Shown piece by piece: positions 23,654 to 44,109 of a stretch of DNA of 44,109 nt. The DNA is taken from contig CAJXOR010000009.1 of NCBI GenBank assembly GCA_913057715.1, positions 1 to 44,109 of the forward strand, given 5' to 3'. The stretch's first letter is position 1. The number at the start of each line of letters is the position of its first letter. Origin of the DNA: an uncultured Moraxellaceae bacterium. Its GTDB lineage: Bacteria; Pseudomonadota; Gammaproteobacteria; Pseudomonadales; Moraxellaceae. Both the position numbers and the translations under genes were made by a program. Under the pieces are notes generated by a model that had not been told where the DNA came from, searched no databases, and was given only the letters and a program-made list of their open reading frames with translations.

Positions 23654-23684
23654 AAAAAAACCAGACTTTAGTCTGGTTTTTTTT
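23654..23684. terminator. Rho-independent terminator
   Basis: AAAAAAACCAGAC-TTTA-GTCTGGTTTTTTTT, 9 bases past the FKBP gene. Confidence 0.95.
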
Positions 23685-23720: not shown

Positions 23721-24254
23721 ATGAAAAAATGGCTCGCCTTCACCCTGTTTAGCTTTTCAGCCCTGTTGATGAGCTGCACCAGTGTTGGGGTTGATAAGTA
23801 TGCCGGCACGACGCCTGAATTTGATTTGTTTGACTACTTTTCAGGCGAGCTGGTTGCTCACGGTCAATTTCAAAGTTTCAGCGGTCAGGTTAGGCGCCGC
23901 TTTGTGGTCGATATCAACGGAGAGGTTGAAGGTGACACCCTAACTCTGACCGAAGATTTTGTGTATGACGATGGAGAGGAGCAGACCCGGGTATGGACCA
24001 TCAAAAAACAGGGTGATAAGTTCGTTGGTACAGCAAGCGATGTGATCGGTGAAGCTGTCGGCGAGTCCTCAGGCTATACCTTCCATTGGGAATACGATAT
24101 TGATCTGCCTTATAAAGACGGCACAATCAAAGTTCACTTTGACGATTGGATGTATCAACAAAACAGCCGTTACCTACTCAATCGCGCCAGAGTCACTAAG
24201 TTTGGCGTACAAGTTGGTGAAGTCACCATCTTTTTTGACAAAACGCCATCATGA
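23721..24254 (+). CDS. DUF3833 lipoprotein
   Basis: A 177-residue lipoprotein (signal ending LLMSC, Cys19) of the DUF3833 family: a beta-rich, lipocalin-like pattern beginning PEFDLFDYFSGELVAHGQFQ, with FHWEYDIDLPY and NRARVTKFGVQVGEVTIFF near the end. No activity is established for the family. AAGGA precedes the ATG. Its stop overlaps the start of the chalcone-isomerase-like gene (ATGA), so they are translated together. In marine gammaproteobacteria this family often lies by cfa-type gene clusters, and it may bind or carry a modified lipid in the envelope; that is inference. Confidence 0.87.
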   Translation: MKKWLAFTLFSFSALLMSCTSVGVDKYAGTTPEFDLFDYFSGELVAHGQFQSFSGQVRRRFVVDINGEVEGDTLTLTEDFVYDDGEEQTRVWTIKKQGDKFVGTASDVIGEAVGESSGYTFHWEYDIDLPYKDGTIKVHFDDWMYQQNSRYLLNRARVTKFGVQVGEVTIFFDKTPS

Positions 24255-24748
24255 TCTTTCAACACAAACTTGGCAGTGCTGCCGCACTGATACTTGGGCT
24301 GTTTAGCGCTCAAAGCATGGCGGCAACTTTGGATGTTGTTGGCGAGGGCACAGCGAAATGGGGGATTTTTACCGTCTATGATGCAACGCTGTATGCTGAA
24401 AAAGAGCAGCCAGCAACCTATCTAAAAGAAGGTGTCCCTCTGGCCCTTAAGCTGTGTTATGCACGCTCAGTCAAAGCCAGTGATATTTTAAAGGCAACCG
24501 ATGAAGCGATCACCAAACCGCCCAGTGCACCGCTCAAGGCCGCACTGACTAAGCTTAACCGCACCATCAAAAGTGTCGACAAAGGCGATTGTTATCAGCT
24601 GACTTATGGCTCTGGAGTCACCCGTCTATCGCTTAACCAGCGTCAGCTTATCGAAGTTAACGAGCCCGGATTTAAAGAGCTCTACTTTGGGATTTGGATC
24701 GGCGATCACGCACTCTCTAAAAGCCTCAAACAAGATCTGCTCAGATAA
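24251..24748 (+). CDS. Chalcone-isomerase-like periplasmic protein
   Basis: A 165-residue exported protein: a signal peptide ending SMA-ATL (about residue 25), then a chalcone-isomerase-like fold (GEGTAKWGIFTVYDATLYAE, the ALKLCYARSVKASDILKATDEAI helix region, and a C-terminal YFGIWIGDHALSKSLKQDLL that matches the family ending). Bacterial members do not have a shown isomerase activity; plant relatives without it bind fatty acids, so a lipid-handling role fits the neighbours. It overlaps the DUF3833 gene by four bases. It converges on the PHA-region gene with about 40 bases between, and no obvious terminator is seen. Confidence 0.85.
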   Translation: MIFQHKLGSAAALILGLFSAQSMAATLDVVGEGTAKWGIFTVYDATLYAEKEQPATYLKEGVPLALKLCYARSVKASDILKATDEAITKPPSAPLKAALTKLNRTIKSVDKGDCYQLTYGSGVTRLSLNQRQLIEVNEPGFKELYFGIWIGDHALSKSLKQDLLR

Positions 24749-24787
24749 CACTTGTGAGTTCCACAGATGGCCGAGAGGTCTTGCAGA

Positions 24788-25081
24788 TCAGCCCTTTAAG
24801 ATTTTATCCATGCTTTCTTCGAGCTTCTCGGTGATCTTTCCTTCAAACGCACTGAACAAAAACCCCAGCTTTGCATTGATCTCAAAGTAAGTGTCGGTGA
24901 CGGTTAGTACGCCCGAAACCCCGCTGCGCTCAAAATTGATTTGCTGCTTAGTGTCAGACGCTGGCAGGGTTTTGCACTTTAACCCCAGATCCTGCTCTCC
25001 CTTTTGAGCCCAGCCTTGAGCCAACTCACAAGCTCTATCAAAGGACATTTGGTGTTCGCGGCGATAGTTGATGTTACTCAC
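24788..25081 (-). CDS. PHA-granule-region (polyhydroxyalkanoic acid system) protein
   Basis: A 97-residue cytosolic protein that looks like the small 'polyhydroxyalkanoic acid system' family (PHA_gran_rgn): INYRREHQMSFDRACELAQG, a central beta region with short turns, and the C-terminal GFLFSAFEGKITEKLEESMDKIL helix. No catalytic motif is seen. The start is GTG at 25081, sharing one base with the TAG stop of the TetR gene, so it is coupled to the regulator. No PHA synthase is nearby, so the family name need not mean PHA metabolism here; related proteins also occur beside fatty-acid genes. Confidence 0.75.
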   Translation of the reverse strand: MSNINYRREHQMSFDRACELAQGWAQKGEQDLGLKCKTLPASDTKQQINFERSGVSGVLTVTDTYFEINAKLGFLFSAFEGKITEKLEESMDKILKG

Positions 25082-25773
25082 TAGTATTCCCTCGATTTTA
25101 GACCGCTAAAGCAGCTCATCATAACCTGATTAATTGCTTCATCAACGGGTGTTCCGCCCTGAATCAGAAAATCGAGCACCGGATCACAGGCCCTAGCGTA
25201 AACCGAGTAAAGCACCAGCATCGCTGGAAAGCGTTTAGAGATCGAACCCTGTTCTTGCGCGCTGACGATCCAAGCACCAATTTGATCAGACACTTCGATT
25301 AACAGGTCCAGATAATCCTGATTGGATTTGAGTAGGTCGCGCAAACTGCTGTTTTGGCTGGGGAGCGTCGGCATCTGATCGGCTGCTTTTTTAGTCAAAC
25401 ACCAATAGGCTGCTGCTTGTACCCGCTCATAATCACTGACGGGTTGTAGCGCCAGAGATTGCAAAAACAAAGAGGCTTGTTTGAGCGCATCGGTCAGCAC
25501 CGCAACACCCAGTGACTCTTTGCCGTTGAAGTGGCGATATAGCGAGGGTTTGGCGATCCCCACCAGCTCAGCTACCTCATCCACAGTCATAGCCTCATAG
25601 CCTTTGGTGCTCAGTAACTCATTTGCCGTTTTGAGCACCAACCGCTCCCGCTGTTTCATCTCTTGCTGCTTGAGGCTCAGGCTTTGATCGATGTCTGGCT
25701 CAATCAGTTTTTTCGCGGCCAAGTCCGCGATGTGAACCACCACACTGATGCGCTCAAGCTCAGCTTCACGCAT
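25081..25773 (-). CDS. TetR-family transcriptional regulator
   Basis: A 230-residue regulator. The TetR helix-turn-helix is at about residues 62-82 (MTVDEVAELVGIAKPSLYRHF), preceded by the usual first helix from about 42; the other two thirds form the ligand-binding and dimerisation domain. The N-terminus has about 38 residues more than most TetR proteins; Met39 would give the normal length, and the start is unsure. It is divergent from the NTF2-SDR-FAD-DUF1365-Cfa operon and most likely represses it, perhaps in answer to a lipid or acyl-CoA. A small dyad lies in the 281-base gap between them. Confidence 0.9.
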   Translation of the reverse strand: MREAELERISVVVHIADLAAKKLIEPDIDQSLSLKQQEMKQRERLVLKTANELLSTKGYEAMTVDEVAELVGIAKPSLYRHFNGKESLGVAVLTDALKQASLFLQSLALQPVSDYERVQAAAYWCLTKKAADQMPTLPSQNSSLRDLLKSNQDYLDLLIEVSDQIGAWIVSAQEQGSISKRFPAMLVLYSVYARACDPVLDFLIQGGTPVDEAINQVMMSCFSGLKSREY

Positions 25774-25866
25774 CGGAAACTTCTCGCATGACAGACATAA
25801 TTTATCTCCTTAGGTTGAGCCAAGGGCCCACGGATTCTGAATTCAAAAAATAACGAGCATTAAATG

Positions 25867-25880
25867 TTACTATTTAGTAA
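25867..25880. promoter_or_regulatory. Dyad, possible TetR operator
   Basis: TTACT-ATTT-AGTAA in the AT-rich stretch (25843-25905) between the divergent TetR gene and the lipid operon; about 95 bases from the TetR start. TetR operators are usually longer, so this is a weak candidate. The rest of the gap, 25774-26054, holds no gene. Confidence 0.4.
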
Positions 25881-26054
25881 AATTTAACCAAATCACTAAG
25901 CTATATGTATCAGACATTTGCTAGGGTAACTGACGTCTGACGTTGATCACGGATTTGAGCGATCAAGCTTCGATATAGACGGATAACCGGAACTAACCGA
26001 GTAGACAAAACCCAACCCAAGCGATGATGCTGGGCTGAACCGAGATCAATACCC

Positions 26055-26555
26055 ATGCCCCCTGAAACCAATGAGCATTTAACAACTGAGTTTAAATCTT
26101 CTGAACTCAAAACTCGAGAGGTTGAGGGTCTCAGCGCCCATTTGGACGAATTCTTGAGTCGTTATGATGAGCTTGATCTAAATCAACTAGACTTGCTCGG
26201 GCAAATGTACACCAACGACGTGCTTTTTATCGACCCTTTTCACCAGATTCAAGGAATCAAAGAGCTCAAAGATTACTTCTCAAAGCTTTATCAAAATATC
26301 GATTCGATTGAGTTTAGTTTCAGTGACCGTTTTTTCTCAGGCAATCAAGCTAGTGTCTACTGGGAGATGCGCTTCAAGCATCGCCGCATCAATTCAGGAC
26401 AAGAGGTTTGTGTGCTGGGCAACTCACGTTTGAGCTTCGAGGCGAGCGGGAAAGTTTCGCGTCACCAAGATTATTTTGACTCTGCAGCCATGCTATATCG
26501 ACACCTGCCTGTTCTTAAACAGGTCATCTCACTTATTGACGGAAGACTCGCATGA
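26055..26555 (+). CDS. NTF2-like (SnoaL) fold protein
   Basis: A 166-residue protein of the NTF2-like/SnoaL superfamily: a helix around LDEFLSRYDELDLNQLDLLG, then LYTNDVLFIDPFHQIQGIKE-type segment near 50-72, then antiparallel strands (VYWEMRFKHRR, GNSRLSFEASGKVSRHQDYFD). No signal peptide. Such cone-shaped folds bind small hydrophobic molecules; here it may bind a fatty acyl intermediate. First gene of the operon; its last bases overlap the SDR start by four (ATGA). The ATG lacks a strong ribosome site. Confidence 0.85.
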   Translation: MPPETNEHLTTEFKSSELKTREVEGLSAHLDEFLSRYDELDLNQLDLLGQMYTNDVLFIDPFHQIQGIKELKDYFSKLYQNIDSIEFSFSDRFFSGNQASVYWEMRFKHRRINSGQEVCVLGNSRLSFEASGKVSRHQDYFDSAAMLYRHLPVLKQVISLIDGRLA

Positions 26556-27298
26556 CCCAATCCTACCAGCACATCGTTGTCACCGGAGCCACTTCAGGAA
26601 TTGGCCGTCAACTGGCGCTTGATTACGCGGAAAAAGGCTTTCGAGTGACGGGTCTTGGCCGAGACCAAGAAGCACTGAGCAAGTTGTCTGAATCAGGTAT
26701 CGGAACAGCCCAAGTCGACGTCACCAACCCAGATGAGGTCAAAGCTTTTTTTGAGCAAGTCGATGAGGTTGATTTATTGATCCTTGTTGCTGGTAACTGT
26801 ATCTACATGGATGCGCTTAACTATAAAAGTGACGTGGTTCAAAAGATGTTAGATGTCAATGTCATGGGGATCAGCCACTGTATTGAGCATGCTCTGCCGC
26901 TTCTCAAAGTCTCCAAGGGACATATCGTTGGGGTGGGCTCAGCCTCAGCTTACGCTCCACTTCCCCGCGCTGAAGGTTATGGTGCCTCTAAAGCCTGTAT
27001 TCACTATTTACTCAGAACACTGGCTATTAGCCTCAAGCCAGCAGGTATTAAGGTCACGATGGTGGCGCCTGGCTTTGTCGACACACCGCTCACCCGCAAA
27101 AACGACTTCCCCATGCCTTTTGAAGTCAGTGTGGAGGCGGCCAGTAACTACATCCGTCGGGGAATTGAGCGCGGTAGCACCGAGATCGAGTTTCCGCTGC
27201 CATTGATCCTCAGTGTTAAGTCCATCGGTCTGTTGCCAACCAAGCTAATCAGTGCGATCTGGCATCGTATTTACGATCCTTCGAAGCGTGAGAACTGA
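26552..27298 (+). CDS. Short-chain dehydrogenase/reductase
   Basis: A 248-residue classical SDR with a Rossmann fold: the dinucleotide motif TGATSGIG at residues 11-18, a LVAGN segment in the place of NNAG near 83-87, the catalytic Ser in GSASAY near 130 and the YGASK motif with Tyr143 and Lys147. The substrate is unknown; in the context of fatty-acid modification it may reduce a keto or hydroxy lipid. It overlaps the NTF2-like gene by four bases and is followed after three bases by the FAD oxidoreductase. The C-terminal helix is hydrophobic (PLPLILSVKSIGLLPTKLIS) and may lie on the membrane. Confidence 0.92.
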   Translation: MTQSYQHIVVTGATSGIGRQLALDYAEKGFRVTGLGRDQEALSKLSESGIGTAQVDVTNPDEVKAFFEQVDEVDLLILVAGNCIYMDALNYKSDVVQKMLDVNVMGISHCIEHALPLLKVSKGHIVGVGSASAYAPLPRAEGYGASKACIHYLLRTLAISLKPAGIKVTMVAPGFVDTPLTRKNDFPMPFEVSVEAASNYIRRGIERGSTEIEFPLPLILSVKSIGLLPTKLISAIWHRIYDPSKREN

Positions 27299-27301
27299 CA
27301 G

Positions 27302-28597
27302 ATGAGTAAACAGATCGCGGTGATTGGTTCAGGTATTGCGGGTATCAGCAGCGCTTACTACTTAGACAAACTAAGCGATCATCAGGTCACCGTCTTTGAA
27401 GCGGATTTCCGTATTGGTGGACACGTTAACACCATCGAGGTTGATGGCGTCGATTCAGCTCTGCCCATCGATACTGGGTTTATCGTCTTTAACGATCGCA
27501 CTTATCCCAACTTTAAACGCCTGCTGGGCGAGCTTAAGGTTGAGTATCAACACTCGCAAATGAGCTTTTCGGTGATCAACCCTAAGCTCAAGCTAGAGTA
27601 CAACGGACACAACCTCAACTCACTATTTTCGCAGCGCAGAAACCTTTTAAGACCCAAGTTTTGGCGACTGGTCAAAGACATCTTGCGCTTCAATAAACAA
27701 GTCACCGAGCTAGGCAAACAGGCTGATTTTGAATCGAAGTATCAAAATGTCACCTTAGCCGACTTTTTAACAGAGCAAGGTTACAGCGAGTGGTTTGAAG
27801 CCAATTACCTGATCCCGATGGTGGCCGCGATTTGGTCGATGGGGCTCTCTGAAGCCAAAGATTTCCCGCTAGTTTTCTTTTCTAAGTTTTTTAACAATCA
27901 CGGTCTGCTGCAAATCAAAGATCGTCCGCAGTGGTTCACCATCTCTGGCGGATCAAAGACCTATATCGAGCAGATCCTCAAAGTGACGGGCGCGCATGTC
28001 TTTAAAAACACGCCGGTCACCGCGGTTAAACGAAGTGTTGATCATGTTGAGCTCAGCGTACAAACCTCTCAAGGGGTGCAAACTCACCAGTTTGATGAAG
28101 TAATATTTGCCTGTCACGCAGACACGGCGCTAAGCCTCCTCAAAGACCCCAGCGCTAACGAAACCGAAGTGCTCTCGGGTTTTGCCTTTACGCCTAACAC
28201 CGCTGTGCTCCACACCGACACCAGTGTATTGCCCAAATATGAGCTGAGCTGGGCCAGCTGGAACTACCGCATCACTGGGGACGGCAGTAAACCTTTGCTG
28301 ACCTACCACATGAATATCTTGCAGAGTATCCCATCCAAAACCAACTACTTGGTCTCGCTTAACCAGACAATTGATCCTAAACACGTGATCAAAACCATCG
28401 AATACGATCACCCGGTTTATAACAGCCAGATGCTAAAAGCTCAAAAGCAGCATGCCCTGATCAGCGGAGTCGACCGGGTGCATTTTGCTGGCGCTTATTG
28501 GTTCAACGGGTTCCATGAAGATGGCCTAAGGAGCGCGATAAGAGTTTGTCAGGCTCTCGGCGCACCGATTGAAGACTTGATGGATGCGGGTGCATGA
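27302..28597 (+). CDS. FAD-dependent oxidoreductase (amine-oxidase-like)
   Basis: A 431-residue flavoprotein of the NAD(P)-binding/flavin amine oxidase superfamily that is commonly encoded beside cfa. The FAD-binding motif GSGIAG lies at residues 9-14, the second flavin contact at ADFRIGGHVNT, and a C-terminal flavin-binding segment at FAGAYWFNGFHEDGLRSA. Relatives in Rhodobacter and actinobacteria act with Cfa-like methyltransferases on fatty acyl chains (desaturation of methylated chains in furan fatty acid synthesis; reduction of a methylene in 10-methylstearate synthesis); which reaction applies here cannot be said. It lies 3 bases after the SDR gene and overlaps DUF1365 by four bases. 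Confidence 0.9.
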   Translation: MSKQIAVIGSGIAGISSAYYLDKLSDHQVTVFEADFRIGGHVNTIEVDGVDSALPIDTGFIVFNDRTYPNFKRLLGELKVEYQHSQMSFSVINPKLKLEYNGHNLNSLFSQRRNLLRPKFWRLVKDILRFNKQVTELGKQADFESKYQNVTLADFLTEQGYSEWFEANYLIPMVAAIWSMGLSEAKDFPLVFFSKFFNNHGLLQIKDRPQWFTISGGSKTYIEQILKVTGAHVFKNTPVTAVKRSVDHVELSVQTSQGVQTHQFDEVIFACHADTALSLLKDPSANETEVLSGFAFTPNTAVLHTDTSVLPKYELSWASWNYRITGDGSKPLLTYHMNILQSIPSKTNYLVSLNQTIDPKHVIKTIEYDHPVYNSQMLKAQKQHALISGVDRVHFAGAYWFNGFHEDGLRSAIRVCQALGAPIEDLMDAGA

Positions 28598-29388
28598 GCA
28601 GCTCAGTATTAAAGCTCGGTGATTTGGCTTTGTTTACCGGGCACACCTGGCATGTACGCCACCAGCCAACGCAGCACCGATTCACCTATCGCTACGACTA
28701 CCTGGGTTTTTGGGCAGCCAGTATCCCCAAGCTCAAGCTTAGCTGGTGGCTGAGTAGTGCACATAAAGCCTTGATTGAGATCCGCCGCGGTGACTATTTA
28801 AGACGGCTCACTGAAGAAGGCGAGCCGCTTCAAACGACTGGGCTGCAAGCGACTGACCCACAAATGACTGACTCGCTAGAGGATTCAGTACTAAAGCGCC
28901 TATCTAAGATCTTAGATAGCGATGTCTCAGGCCGCGTGCTGGCGCTGATTAAACCGCGCGGTTTGTTCGCCTACTTCAGCCCAGTGAATTTTTACTTGGT
29001 GTTTAACCCTGATGATCAGTGCACCCACTTGCTAGCCGAGGTCACTAACACGCCTTGGGGTGAGCAGCACTGCTACGGTCTTGATCTAAGCGCGCCCCTA
29101 AAAAGCGAGAAAGACTTCACCGTGTCGCCATTTAACCCGCTCAAACAACGCTACGACTGGCTGGTTGAGGCAAATCTCGACTCGGTTCGCATCGTGATCA
29201 AGGTGTCGGATGAGCGCGGTCAGATCATGGATGCTGGGGTGAAATTGGATCGCAAGGAGTTGAAACACTCTCGCTGGTTTGCACTCACCCATGCTGCCAC
29301 CAACCTTCGCACGCTGGCGCTGATCTACTGGCATGCACTGATACTTTATGCCGTCAAACGGACGCCTTTTTTGGGAAAAAAAGGATGA
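28594..29388 (+). CDS. DUF1365 protein
   Basis: A 264-residue protein of the DUF1365 family, which is regularly found between the FAD oxidoreductase and the Cfa-like methyltransferase. It opens with the family pattern LFTGHTWHVRHQPTQHRFTY, with His residues that could form a site, followed by YDYLGFW; further segments are LIKPRGLFAYFSPVNFYLVF and EVTNTPWGEQHCY, and the tail is hydrophobic. Its activity is not established; a thioesterase-like or lipid-binding function has been discussed for such clusters only by association. It overlaps both neighbours by four bases, which indicates tight translational coupling. Confidence 0.9.
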   Translation: MSSSVLKLGDLALFTGHTWHVRHQPTQHRFTYRYDYLGFWAASIPKLKLSWWLSSAHKALIEIRRGDYLRRLTEEGEPLQTTGLQATDPQMTDSLEDSVLKRLSKILDSDVSGRVLALIKPRGLFAYFSPVNFYLVFNPDDQCTHLLAEVTNTPWGEQHCYGLDLSAPLKSEKDFTVSPFNPLKQRYDWLVEANLDSVRIVIKVSDERGQIMDAGVKLDRKELKHSRWFALTHAATNLRTLALIYWHALILYAVKRTPFLGKKG

Positions 29389-30710
29389 AGAACAAACCAA
29401 AGAGGAACTCCATGATTCAACAGGCCAATCAACTGATTAAACGCAGTAAGGGCGACATCAAACCACTGGATCAGTTGTTCAGGGGATTTGTACACAGCGC
29501 TTTTAGTCGCATCCCCGCCAAGCTGTTAATCACCGAGCAATTTGCTGGTGGATCAACGCATGAACTGGGCACGGGCGATGCCGATAGCGTCTTGATCGAG
29601 ATCAAGGTTAACCAGGTCAACTTTTACCGCCGCGCGGTTTTGGGCGGCAACATCGGGGCTGCTGAGAGCTATATCGATGGCGAGTGGGACTCGCCTCACT
29701 TAGTCCAACTGGTTGAGCAGCTCTCTCGCCACAAAAACGCGGTCGACAAGATCGACGGGCCATTTGCGTGGGCCTCTAAAATTGGCGCCTCACTTGCCCA
29801 CCAGTTCCGCCACAACGACATCAAAAACGCCCGCGCCAACATCATGGCGCACTACGACGTCGGCAACGCCATGTATGAGCAGTTTTTGGATCACACGCTC
29901 ATGTACTCATCCGCCATCTACCCTAGCGACGAGGCCACCCTTGAGGAGGCGCAGCAAAACAAACTCAAAGTGATCTGTGACAAGCTACAGCTGAAGCCAA
30001 ATGACCACGTGATAGAGATCGGAACCGGGTGGGGCGGCTTTGCGATCTATGCTGCTACTAATTACGGCTGCCACATCACCACAACCACCATCTCAGAAGC
30101 GCAATACGCAGAAGCAACTAAGCGGGTTAATGCGGCAGGCCTGCAAGACAAAATCACCCTGCTCAAAGAAGACTACCGCAACCTCACGGGCACCTTTGAC
30201 AAATTGGCCAGCATCGAGATGATCGAGGCAGTGGGTCATGAGTATTTGCCGGTGTTTTTCTCCAAGTGCTCCCGTCTGCTAAAACCAGGCGGTGCGATGC
30301 TGATTCAAGCGATCACATACCGAGATCAGGATTATAGCGATTACTTAAAGTCAGCCGACTTTATCCAAAAGCACATCTTCCCGGGTGGTTGCCTGTTATC
30401 TAGCAGTGATCTGCTCCAAAGGTATCAGAACCATACCGATATGAGCGTCAACCAGTTAGAGGAGTTTGGTCTGCACTATGCGCGAACCCTCAAAGACTGG
30501 TGCGAGCGCTTTGAAGCAGCTACTGACACCTTGGACAAACTTGGCTATGACGAGCGCTTTAAACGCTTGTGGCGCTACTACTTTAAATACTGTGAGGGCG
30601 GGTTTTTGTCGCGCCGGATCGGGGTAGTGCAAATCCTCTCAAGCAAACCAGATGCCGTGCTCGACTTTGCCCTGCATGGTCAGATTACCGCCGAGATGCA
30701 CCCTGCTTAA
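29385..30710 (+). CDS. cfa: Cyclopropane-fatty-acid synthase-like methyltransferase
   Basis: A 441-residue SAM-dependent methyltransferase acting on the double bond of phospholipid acyl chains. Visible are the Cfa substrate-domain lead AESYIDGEWDSP, the MAHYDVGNAMYEQFLDHTLMYSS motif near 150-172, SAM-binding motif VIEIGTGWGGFA near 209-220, the SIEMIEAVGHEYLPVFF active-site segment, and QAITYRDQDY with the IFPGG loop near 330. E. coli Cfa has 382 residues; the extra length is N-terminal. Methyl (not only cyclopropane) products are possible in this subfamily. The start may be ATG at 29385 (overlapping DUF1365) or Met10 (29412), which has AGAGGA upstream. A terminator-like hairpin follows. Confidence 0.94.
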   Translation: MKNKPKRNSMIQQANQLIKRSKGDIKPLDQLFRGFVHSAFSRIPAKLLITEQFAGGSTHELGTGDADSVLIEIKVNQVNFYRRAVLGGNIGAAESYIDGEWDSPHLVQLVEQLSRHKNAVDKIDGPFAWASKIGASLAHQFRHNDIKNARANIMAHYDVGNAMYEQFLDHTLMYSSAIYPSDEATLEEAQQNKLKVICDKLQLKPNDHVIEIGTGWGGFAIYAATNYGCHITTTTISEAQYAEATKRVNAAGLQDKITLLKEDYRNLTGTFDKLASIEMIEAVGHEYLPVFFSKCSRLLKPGGAMLIQAITYRDQDYSDYLKSADFIQKHIFPGGCLLSSSDLLQRYQNHTDMSVNQLEEFGLHYARTLKDWCERFEAATDTLDKLGYDERFKRLWRYYFKYCEGGFLSRRIGVVQILSSKPDAVLDFALHGQITAEMHPA

Positions 30711-30718
30711 CTACAGTA

Positions 30719-30754
30719 CACCATCGGGGTGATTACCCGCCCTGATGGTGTTTT
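30719..30754. terminator. Terminator hairpin after cfa
   Basis: CACCATCGGGG (30719-30729) pairs with CCCTGATGGTG (30740-30750) with one G-U pair, followed by TTTT. It lies between the convergent cfa and argA genes. Confidence 0.8.
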
Positions 30755-30763
30755 GGATTTTGA

Positions 30764-32166
30764 TCAGTGCGCTTTGAGCTGCTTCAAGTAAATCTTCGAT
30801 GAGCGCGAGGGGTTATAGCGTCAGATGTGTATAAGAGACAGGGGTTATAGCGACTCCGACGCTCGCTCGGCATGCGCTCAACGCCCACCTCGACAAATCC
30901 CTGATCTAAAAACCAGTGGGCGGTCTGCGTGGTCAGGGCGATTAACTCTTGTATGCCTTGAGACTCAGCTTGCTCACTAAGGTAGGCGATCAGGCGCTCC
31001 CCGCAACCGATCCGGCGAAAGTCCGGATGAACCGCGACGGAGGCCACTTCTGCGCAGCTGGGTTCAGTTTCCTGAGTGGGCAACTGGTAAAGCGCAGCAC
31101 ACCCCACCACCAACCCATCGCGCTTGACCACGGTGTAGCGATCCAGATCTCGCTCGATGTCGCTTAAACTGCGCTCGATCAGCACCCCTTTTTGTACCAT
31201 CGGTGCCAGCAAACGGCAGATCGCCGCGGCATCTTCATCGCGTGCTGCGTAGACATTTTCAAAGCGATCCGCGCTCACCAAAGTTCCTGCGCCATCGAGG
31301 GTAAACAACTCCTTTAACAGCGAGCCTGGCTGCTGGTAGCTGATGAGATGCGTGCGGTTGACTCCCTGCTCACAAGCCTTGATCGCGCCAATTAAGTGGC
31401 GCTTCACCTCTACACTCAGTGAATTTTGCTCAATCACCTGCTTGGCTTGAGCCGGCGTCAATTCACGCTTAGGCGTGCGCGCCTCGCTACTTGCCGGAGT
31501 CAACACACCCGACTCGCCCATGAGGATCAGTTTATCCGCCCCAAGCTCAATCGCCGCCTTAACAGCAACTTGCTCTGCCAGCAGGTTATAGACCTCACCG
31601 GTGGTTGAGTAACCCAGCGGCCCAAGCAGCACGATCTGCTCGTTACCCAAACAGTTGTTGATCGCGCGGGTATCGATGCTGCGCACGGCTCCAGTGTGTC
31701 CGTAGTCCACCCCGTCTCTCACCCCAAAAGGTTTAGCGGTCACAAAATTGCCCGATACCGTATCAATGCGCGAGTGCTGCATGGGCGAGCCGGCCAGGCC
31801 CATACTGAATCTAGCCTCGATCTTAAGCCGGGTTGAGCCCACCGCATCAAGCACGCAGCGCAGCGCTTCAGGAGTGGTCACTCTTAAGTTGTTGTGTACC
31901 TGCGTCTCTATCCCCTGCTCGCTCAAATCCGCATCAATCTGCGGGCGAGCACCATGCACCAGCACCAGCCGTATGCCTAAGCTTTTAAGCAGCGCCAGAT
32001 CAAAGATCAGCGACTCAAAGTGCTCAAGCTCCACCGCTTCCCCGCCAAAGAGCACCACAAAGGTTTTACCGCGGTGCATGTTGATATAAGGCGCCGCGGT
32101 GCGAAACCAGTTGAGGTGATCAATACTGGATAAGGGCGGAGTCAACGAGGGGTCAGGTGAGGTCAT
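30764..32166 (-). CDS. argA: Amino-acid N-acetyltransferase (two-domain ArgA), interrupted by adapter
   Basis: N-acetylglutamate synthase, the first step of arginine synthesis (acetyl-CoA plus glutamate), normally inhibited by arginine. The N-terminal amino-acid-kinase-like domain (about 25-290; VVLFGGEAVE, LVLVHGARPQID) binds arginine; the C-terminal GNAT domain carries EVASVAVHPDFRRIGCGERL as acetyl-CoA site. As written, the frame shifts after YNP because bases of a Nextera i5 adapter with a 12-bp direct repeat are inserted. Removing 32 bases (for example 30821-30852) joins ...RYNP to SRSSKIYLKQLKAH and a stop at 30764, giving 456 residues and a normal C-terminus. So the gene is intact in the organism. 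Start ATG at 32166. Confidence 0.95.
30809..30852. other. Internal Nextera i5 adapter remnant with 12-bp duplication (artefact)
   Basis: GGGGTTATAGCG occurs at 30809-30820 and 30841-30852. Between them lies TCAGATGTGTATAAGAGACA, the end of the i5-side adapter and mosaic end (full match 30818-30841, GCGTCAG then the mosaic end). The genome should hold the 12-mer only once; a 32-base excess remains in this assembly. Confidence 0.97.
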
Positions 32167-44062: not shown

Positions 44063-44109
44063 CTGTCTCTTATACACATCTCCGAGCCCACGAGACTAGG
44101 CATGATCTC
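44063..44109. other. Nextera i7 adapter (artefact)
   Basis: Reverse complement of bases 1-47: mosaic end (CTGTCTCTTATACACATCT), CCGAGCCCACGAGAC, the index TAGGCATG, and the start of the flow-cell primer site. Not genomic. Confidence 0.98.

Follow-up and report, generated by a model that had tools for sequence, protein, structure and literature searches.

A TetR-linked furan-fatty-acid-type gene locus with two predicted envelope partners in an uncultured Moraxellaceae bacterium

Gene layout and recurrence of the locus

We analysed a nine-gene locus at positions 23721-30710 of a 44,109-nucleotide stretch of DNA from an uncultured Moraxellaceae bacterium (NCBI GenBank assembly GCA_913057715.1, contig CAJXOR010000009.1; this whole stretch is called the window below). 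All nine genes proposed by the initial annotation are open at their coordinates, each domain name was upheld by Pfam search, and the proposed layout of two divergent units plus a convergent pair was recovered. The features are as follows, with Pfam matches and their values in brackets.

23721-24254, plus strand: DUF3833 lipoprotein, predicted calycin/lipocalin-like barrel (PF12915, 9.6e-65)
24251-24748, plus strand: exported chalcone-isomerase-like (CHI-like) protein of a divergent, ufa-linked subfamily (Chalcone_3, PF16036, 2.9e-18)
24788-25081, minus strand: small PHA_gran_rgn protein, encoded second in the TetR unit (PF09650, 7.7e-18)
25081-25773, minus strand: TetR-family regulator, divergent from the operon (TetR_N, 2.7e-14)
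25860-25887, no strand: 28-bp palindrome, candidate TetR operator (13-nt arms, 92% complementary)
26055-26555, plus strand: NTF2/SnoaL-like protein, first gene of the operon (SnoaL_2, PF12680, 1.5e-11)
26552-27298, plus strand: short-chain dehydrogenase/reductase, SDR (adh_short, PF00106, 4.3e-38)
27302-28597, plus strand: UfaD-type FAD oxidoreductase (Amino_oxidase, PF01593, 4.3e-28)
28594-29388, plus strand: UfaO-type DUF1365 protein, candidate furan-forming monooxygenase (PF07103, 2.4e-51)
29385-30710, plus strand: UfaM-type Cfa-like methyltransferase (CMAS, PF02353, 8.2e-83)
30718-30751, plus strand: terminator-like stem 3' of the operon (14 pairs, 8 of them G-C, then a T-rich tail)

The DUF3833 and Chalcone_3 genes overlap by 4 nt on the plus strand and converge on the minus-strand TetR/PHA_gran_rgn pair, which diverges from a plus-strand operon of five genes joined by 4-nt overlaps and one 3-nt gap. 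Neighbouring genes of a unit share 1 to 4 nt or stand 3 nt apart, which gives each unit the look of a single transcript. A stem with a run of T after it, located by eye at about 23660-23684, sits between an upstream FKBP gene and DUF3833.

The FAD oxidoreductase, DUF1365 and Cfa-like genes lie side by side, which is the gene signature by which we recognised a furan-fatty-acid (ufa) locus. By domain and gene order, the three proteins are of the UfaD, UfaO and UfaM types described by Lemke 2020. Considering all the evidence jointly, we find it highly probable that the nine genes constitute a ufa locus that is repressed by TetR and has DUF3833 and the CHI-like protein as envelope partners.

The gene set is a recurrent one. 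When 58 genomes were searched with the DUF1365 protein of the window, 36 gave a match, its own genome included; the 36 matches outside that genome (35 genomes, one with two) are referred to as relative loci. A FAD oxidoreductase gene and a Cfa-like gene were found near DUF1365, within the fetched stretch, at 36 of 36 relative loci; gene calling by longest open reading frame (ORF) undercounts further partners there. A second collection comprises 80 named loci that were the matches listed in a similarity search with the FAD oxidoreductase, which is therefore present by construction; a BLAST match of 42 bits within 9 kb was the criterion for the other genes, and partners can be missed where a locus is short. 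Among these listed loci, 69 of 80 hold the FAD oxidoreductase, DUF1365 and Cfa-like genes together, and the SDR was found in 63, the NTF2-like gene in 59 and DUF2878 in 36. DUF3833 and the CHI-like gene were each present in 23 and both in 22. ChrR was seen in 22, a LitR-type MerR regulator in 30 and photolyase in 49, with at least one of the three in 57. In Desulfogranum marinum (L081) and a deltaproteobacterial metagenome-assembled genome (L079), the genes for DUF3833, the CHI-like protein, the NTF2-like protein, the SDR, the FAD oxidoreductase, DUF1365 and the Cfa-like protein follow the order of the window; in both, DUF2878 stands after the Cfa-like gene and the TetR pair is absent. The complement had been called unusual; it is instead widespread, and a chance grouping of the genes was set aside in view of these two sets of counts and of the class-wide co-occurrence described below.

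Several named systems resemble the locus in part. The R. sphaeroides (Rhodobacter sphaeroides) genes ufaM and RSP_1091-1087 (PMC7380195) supply the UfaD, DUF1365-type UfaO and Cfa-like UfaM types, an SDR and RSP_1088, the probable DUF3833 counterpart. There, however, ufaM lies elsewhere and the operon is under ChrR-sigmaE, whereas the window has all three enzyme genes in one operon with TetR adjacent. The window also has no GPH gene in the cluster, RSP_1089 being a GPH-type symporter, and its NTF2-like, PHA_gran_rgn and CHI-like genes are extra. A cluster of Aeromonas salmonicida (PMC10012899) contains NTF2-like, SDR, FAD oxidoreductase, DUF1365 and cfa genes in the same order as the window, but DUF2878 comes next and the cluster is lowered by riboflavin along with a ChrR gene; that paper states that experimental information on its function is lacking. 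The LitR/phrB/ufaM region of Pseudomonas mendocina (PMC9758184) shares the SDR, the FAD oxidoreductase and ufaM, includes hypothetical genes, and has a LitR-type regulator and a photolyase where the window has TetR. Finally, smlt2375-2367 of Stenotrophomonas maltophilia (PMC11832516) share the FAD oxidoreductase and Cfa-like genes, together with a periplasmic lipocalin, but differ in a desaturase, a second Cfa and sigmaE-ChrR control. We conclude that the locus is real, conserved and mostly known in kind. It represents a variant linked to TetR, to which the counts and the predicted folds tie two envelope partners.

Two other gene types recur at ufa loci. A GPH-type (MFS_2) symporter gene, often adjoining DUF3833, was found by ufa genes at 16 of 145 loci and at the Ensifer locus L227 (loci with it include L202, L204-L211, L216, L219, L223 and L227). 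RudS-type (DUF523/DUF1722) genes, whose products have been reported as 4-thiouridine desulfidases, form a sequence cluster present at 6 of the 36 relative loci (one member checked with Pfam); examples are L057:14334-15296 and L228:7492-8451, the latter beside a Klebsiella cluster.

Core enzymes and their predicted product

Carried over to the window by gene type and order, the three enzymatic steps shown in Rhodobacter and Rhodopseudomonas would proceed as follows. UfaM would use S-adenosylmethionine (SAM) to methylate an unsaturated acyl chain of a membrane phospholipid, UfaD would introduce a second double bond, and UfaO would close the furan ring in an O2-dependent step. The furan product would then mop up reactive oxygen within the membrane; furan acids are reportedly scavengers of this kind. 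In R. sphaeroides itself, UfaM places the methyl group on an 18:1 acyl chain, UfaD gives the methyl diene and UfaO (DUF1365) inserts O2-derived oxygen to yield the methyl furan acid (PMC7380195). The same source reports that an R. sphaeroides mutant needs no more than UfaM, UfaD and UfaO of R. palustris (Rhodopseudomonas palustris) to form 9M5-FuFA, and that deletion of RSP1087 (the SDR), RSP1088 or RSP1089 in R. sphaeroides without chrR left the fatty acid profile unchanged. In Halomonas, ufaD, ufaO and ufaM are consecutive, and UfaM produced in E. coli gave 11-methyloctadec-12-enoate (PMC12089945). The original proposal of a lipid-modification locus with furan fatty acids among its candidate products is thus supported, whereas its notion of a longer pathway is weakened by the sufficiency of the three R. 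palustris enzymes and by the R. sphaeroides deletions.

Some observations weigh against a furan product. The Ufa types were assigned from family names and gene order, and the furan acid is a prediction from the genes. The DUF1365 protein of the window scores 1.8e-51, whereas 64 of the 68 genomes with DUF1365 in our class survey reach 1.4e-62 or better. In addition, E. coli overexpressing Halomonas ufaM also showed cyclic acids (PMC12089945).

The nature of the flavoprotein bears on a different outcome, in which the FAD oxidoreductase and the Cfa-like protein make saturated methyl-branched acids such as 10-methylstearate in the manner of actinobacterial TmsA/TmsB. In that system, too, a flavoprotein is joined to a Cfa-like methyltransferase. 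The flavoprotein of the window, however, is an Amino_oxidase protein (PF01593; its closest relative of solved structure is LkcE, 1.9e-69 by profile search) without an FAD_binding_4 match at E 0.01, FAD_binding_4 being the kind to which TmsA belongs, and DUF1365 is not known to have a place in the TmsA/TmsB pathway. A pair of the TmsA/TmsB type was therefore rejected, and we consider its product extremely improbable here.

Five residues of E. coli Cfa, namely C139, E239, H266, I268 and Y317, are the counterparts of residues that bind a bicarbonate (PMC3132707). The Cfa-like protein of the window reads S, E, Q, I and Y at these positions and so departs from the canonical cyclopropane-synthase set; at the position of E. 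coli H240 it has A. The A240/Q266 combination occurs in 111 of 124 aligned proteins, that of the window included. The remaining 13 keep both histidines; one of them is E. coli Cfa, and the other 12 are encoded at loci with two Cfa-like genes. By sequence, the enzyme differs from a standard cyclopropane synthase. The altered site would suit an enzyme that halts at the methyl-branched alkene if bicarbonate acts as the ring-closing base, as proposed for Cfa.

The residue signature cannot fix the product, however, because cotton GhCPS1 and GhCPS2, which lack H266 (having Q and I) and carry Ser for C139, are still reported producers of cyclopropane acids. The Cfa-like enzyme might accordingly be a cyclopropane synthase that the FAD protein merely assists, as in cotton GhCPS1, giving cyclopropane lipids under stress. 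Such a role would fit the N-terminal FAD oxidase domain of the cotton enzyme, the yield of cyclopropane acids in yeast from GhCPS1, which shares S139 and Q266, and the window's own genome, in which no other Cfa scores comparably. It fits poorly with the presence in the operon of DUF1365, a furan-forming type, with the methyl-branched ene obtained from Halomonas UfaM in E. coli, and with the replacement of both H240 and H266 throughout the group of 111 proteins. Moreover, an Agrobacterium pair of oxidase and Cfa-like protein is reported to have given no cyclopropane acid in yeast. We judge cyclopropane synthesis to be improbable and retain a furan acid as the predicted product. In some lineages (L064:1514-2305, L109, L140, L150 and L155) the ufa genes are accompanied by a gene for a DUF1295 membrane protein and by one for an additional Cfa with both histidines, maybe providing a further modification step.

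Co-occurrence and predicted folds of the envelope partners

The class survey comprised 229 genomes. DUF3833 was present in 35 and DUF1365 in 68 of them; 32 genomes had both, in 26 cases within 10 kb (p 7e-17). At the genus level, DUF1365 was found in 28 of the 30 DUF3833 genera (counted by hand) versus 61 of 196 genera overall (p 8e-15); the genomes are non-independent, a problem that the genus-level test reduces without removing it.

Chalcone_3 scored above cut-off in 67 genomes and falls into two subfamilies by score, with the division set after the scores had been seen (at least 117.8 bits versus at most 111.4 bits). The strong, canonical subfamily shows no link to the pathway (DUF1365 in 12 of 40 genomes, p 0.55). 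The weak, window-like subfamily occurs in 33 genomes including that of the window, of which 32 have DUF1365 and 28 have DUF3833; it lies within 10 kb of DUF1365 in 24 genomes, and G114, which has a window-like protein and lacks DUF1365, is 84% complete. Chalcone_3 matches in G119 and G148 and one fragment in G264, all below cut-off, were dropped from these counts, as was a second DUF1365 fragment in G264. In a Chalcone_3 tree, 30 strong rows stand on one 100/99 branch and all remaining rows lie beyond it; the tree took in 31 of the 40 strong matches, and one strong row, from G163, was lost, with a weak row standing under its label. As to whether the two genes always travel with the operon, DUF3833 (32 of 35) and the CHI-like gene (32 of 33) are nearly always found in DUF1365 genomes, but neither is always with the operon, DUF3833 being present in just 32 of the 68 DUF1365 genomes.

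Our literature searches found no paper that links a CHI-like protein to the ufa operon. The link of DUF3833 to the pathway is partly known already in the form of RSP_1088: the core RpoE-ChrR regulon of R. sphaeroides includes RSP_1088 and RSP_1087 (PMC5507510). A DUF3833 lipoprotein gene is also reported directly 3' of a cfa gene in Erwinia amylovora. RSP_1088 is probably the DUF3833 counterpart, because it is 186 aa long, has a P. syringae relative (PSPTO_2515) that is called a lipoprotein, and lies between the GPH symporter and the SDR, and because DUF3833 has a GPH symporter and an SDR close by in L216, L219 and Ensifer L227. The conservation of RSP_1089-1087 within Rhodobacteraceae only, as stated in PMC3818230, speaks against a wide family and so against this equation. 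DUF3833 was also seen on plasmids, with 147 records that include 95 from Klebsiella. In L226 (NZ_CP014763.1), where no ufa genes accompany it, it is flanked by an IS110 transposase gene and a DUF523/DUF1722 gene, an arrangement that looks like a remnant of the Klebsiella L228 cluster.

A lipobox-type cysteine, Cys19, is invariant in 24 aligned DUF3833 sequences. The AlphaFold model of the protein (pLDDT 94.1) is a ten-stranded barrel whose best match is a designed barrel (Z 15.7), followed by BFA1 (Z 15.3), OssO (Z 15.0), and then a DUF3598 protein, CpeS and nitrobindin (nitrobindin at about Z 13.8, the lowest of these matches at about 13); fatty-acid-binding proteins (FABPs) match at about Z 9.5. 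DUF3833 is thus predicted to have a calycin/lipocalin-like fold with a single antiparallel beta barrel. The model of the CHI-like protein (pLDDT 88.2) matches the chalcone isomerase fold at Z 16.0. It resembles AtFAP3 (Z 15.1) and AtFAP1 (Z 14.5), which have the CHI fold and bind fatty acids but differ in being plant proteins, with identities in structural alignment of 16% (AtFAP1) and 21% (AtFAP3). The models suggest that both partners adopt folds represented by known binders of fatty acids or of other hydrophobic ligands. Together with Cys19, they support the earlier claim of exported, beta-rich partners.

Lipocalins at the clusters of S. maltophilia and Klebsiella (record L228, where a lipocalin gene lies beside the ufa cluster and the stretch for cfa is read as two separate pieces) make a hydrophobic-ligand envelope barrel a repeated companion of the pathway. 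Because synthesis in R. sphaeroides needs neither the SDR nor RSP_1088, the partners more likely serve in the handling, transport or clearing of an oxidised product. On this view DUF3833 and the CHI-like protein would not be enzymes that synthesis requires; they would hold or carry furan acyl chains or the products of their oxidation.

The TetR regulator, its candidate operator and the meaning of the locus

The TetR gene faces the operon over 281 bp that hold the 28-bp palindrome, and none of 500 shuffles of this region of the window contained a palindrome of equal quality. From 25860-25887, TetR would repress both its own unit and the operon. A TetR homologue adjoins the operon at 5 of the 36 relative loci and at none of the 80 listed named loci. 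The palindrome core TACTNNNNAGTA is found in the TetR-operon intergenic region of all six TetR-bearing loci, the window included, and the fuller core TACTANNTAGTA lies between TetR and the operon also in L045, L067 and L078. In shuffled regions TACTNNNNAGTA arises in 0.2 to 2.1% of cases, and 8 of its 11 sites in 142 kb fall in the six TetR regions, which total 846 bp. It is absent from the 500 nt upstream of the operon in all 127 control loci without TetR (30 relatives, 18 class-survey loci and 79 named loci, some of them possibly one species in two collections); the control called for the FAD gene and no less than 150 nt of upstream sequence, which excluded 13 of 145 loci.

The case for repression from this site is nevertheless weakened in several respects. 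The motif is a candidate by sequence that was found by looking, in six loci. In L045 a palindrome of equal quality arose in 18 of 500 shuffles, and L070 and L074 hold the looser core TACTNNNNAGTA only, with two sites each. Furthermore, there is no operator upstream of DUF3833 when up to 3 mismatches are allowed.

Three more TACTANNTAGTA sites occur in the window's own genome (G000:C5:38323, C16:7140 and C85:2879). Each precedes a different gene, as named from the translations without family search: one of the MoxR-type AAA kind, which has a trehalose-phosphate-synthase-like gene as its neighbour; a GGDEF gene; and trpB. A wider TetR regulon was set aside, there being no lipid genes at these three sites.

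TetR occupies the position that ChrR-sigmaE or LitR holds in many relatives. In other bacteria, light or reactive oxygen species control related operons: VC1122 of Vibrio cholerae is light-induced, the Pseudomonas ufaM region is controlled by LitR (PMC9758184), and the clusters of P. syringae and S. maltophilia are reported to be under sigmaE. In R. sphaeroides, RSP_1090 (UfaO) is also required for breakdown of ChrR under singlet oxygen, and RSP_1091 and RSP_1090 together are required for full RpoE activation under the same condition (PMC3818230), so the pathway is able to feed back on its own control. In the window's own genome neither of two models found a ChrR match, and the published sigmaE site, TGATC-N16-20-CGTAT, is absent from the window; ChrR-sigmaE control was rejected on these grounds. 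LitR control was likewise rejected, since the one match in the genome to a MerR protein with a B12-binding domain extends over 97 residues of a 917-aa frame, with 22% identity and a value of 5.4e-4. With the assembly 95.4% complete, ChrR and LitR are likely absent from this genome; a photolyase is encoded on another of its contigs.

The position of the palindrome, 86 nt from the TetR start and 167 nt from the NTF2-like start, would also fit a narrower role in which TetR governs only itself and PHA_gran_rgn, while the operon is constitutive or under an unseen extracytoplasmic function (ECF) sigma factor; a sigmaE promoter is reported to precede the phrB-to-cfa cluster of P. syringae. The results on the sigmaE site and ChrR given above argue against this, as do the TetR-operon gaps of just 49 to 112 nt in L067, L070, L074 and L078, across which a bound TetR could cover both promoters. 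We consider the narrower role unlikely, although it is compatible with a ufa locus of the composition proposed, and favour repression of both units.

The TetR and PHA_gran_rgn pair also occurs in L045, one of the five TetR-bearing relative loci. The PF09650 match behind the earlier "PHA-region" label was upheld, but the name is misleading, as the genome has no PhaC_N match and hence no sign of a PHA synthase. A PHA-related role of the locus was set aside for this reason.

Outside the locus, an identical 19-nt sequence, which we take to be an exact Nextera mosaic end, occurs at 29-47, 30823-30841 and 44063-44081 of the window. The first and last copies lie close to the ends of the contig; the internal copy has repeated GGGTTATAGCG on its flanks and alters the end of an argA-like ORF (30784-32166). 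The whole assembly holds 90 forward and 88 reverse copies, and the copies are an assembly artefact.

The roles of the partners and of the regulator might be joined in one scheme. The lipid-anchored DUF3833 barrel and the periplasmic CHI-like pocket would be dedicated envelope carriers of furan acids or of their singlet-oxygen products, moving them from one membrane to the other or out of damaged phospholipid. TetR would sense such an acyl product and leave TACTNNNNAGTA, so that the locus would be induced by product and not by ChrR or light. We offer this scheme tentatively, as a possibility about which we are rather doubtful.

Furan fatty acids are described as antioxidant lipids that reach people via fish and other food. 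The bacterial furan enzymes are known; the roles of envelope partners and control without ChrR are the less explained part. Our survey links two uncharacterised families to the pathway numerically, their predicted folds suggest acyl binding, and a candidate regulator is offered together with a precise DNA site.

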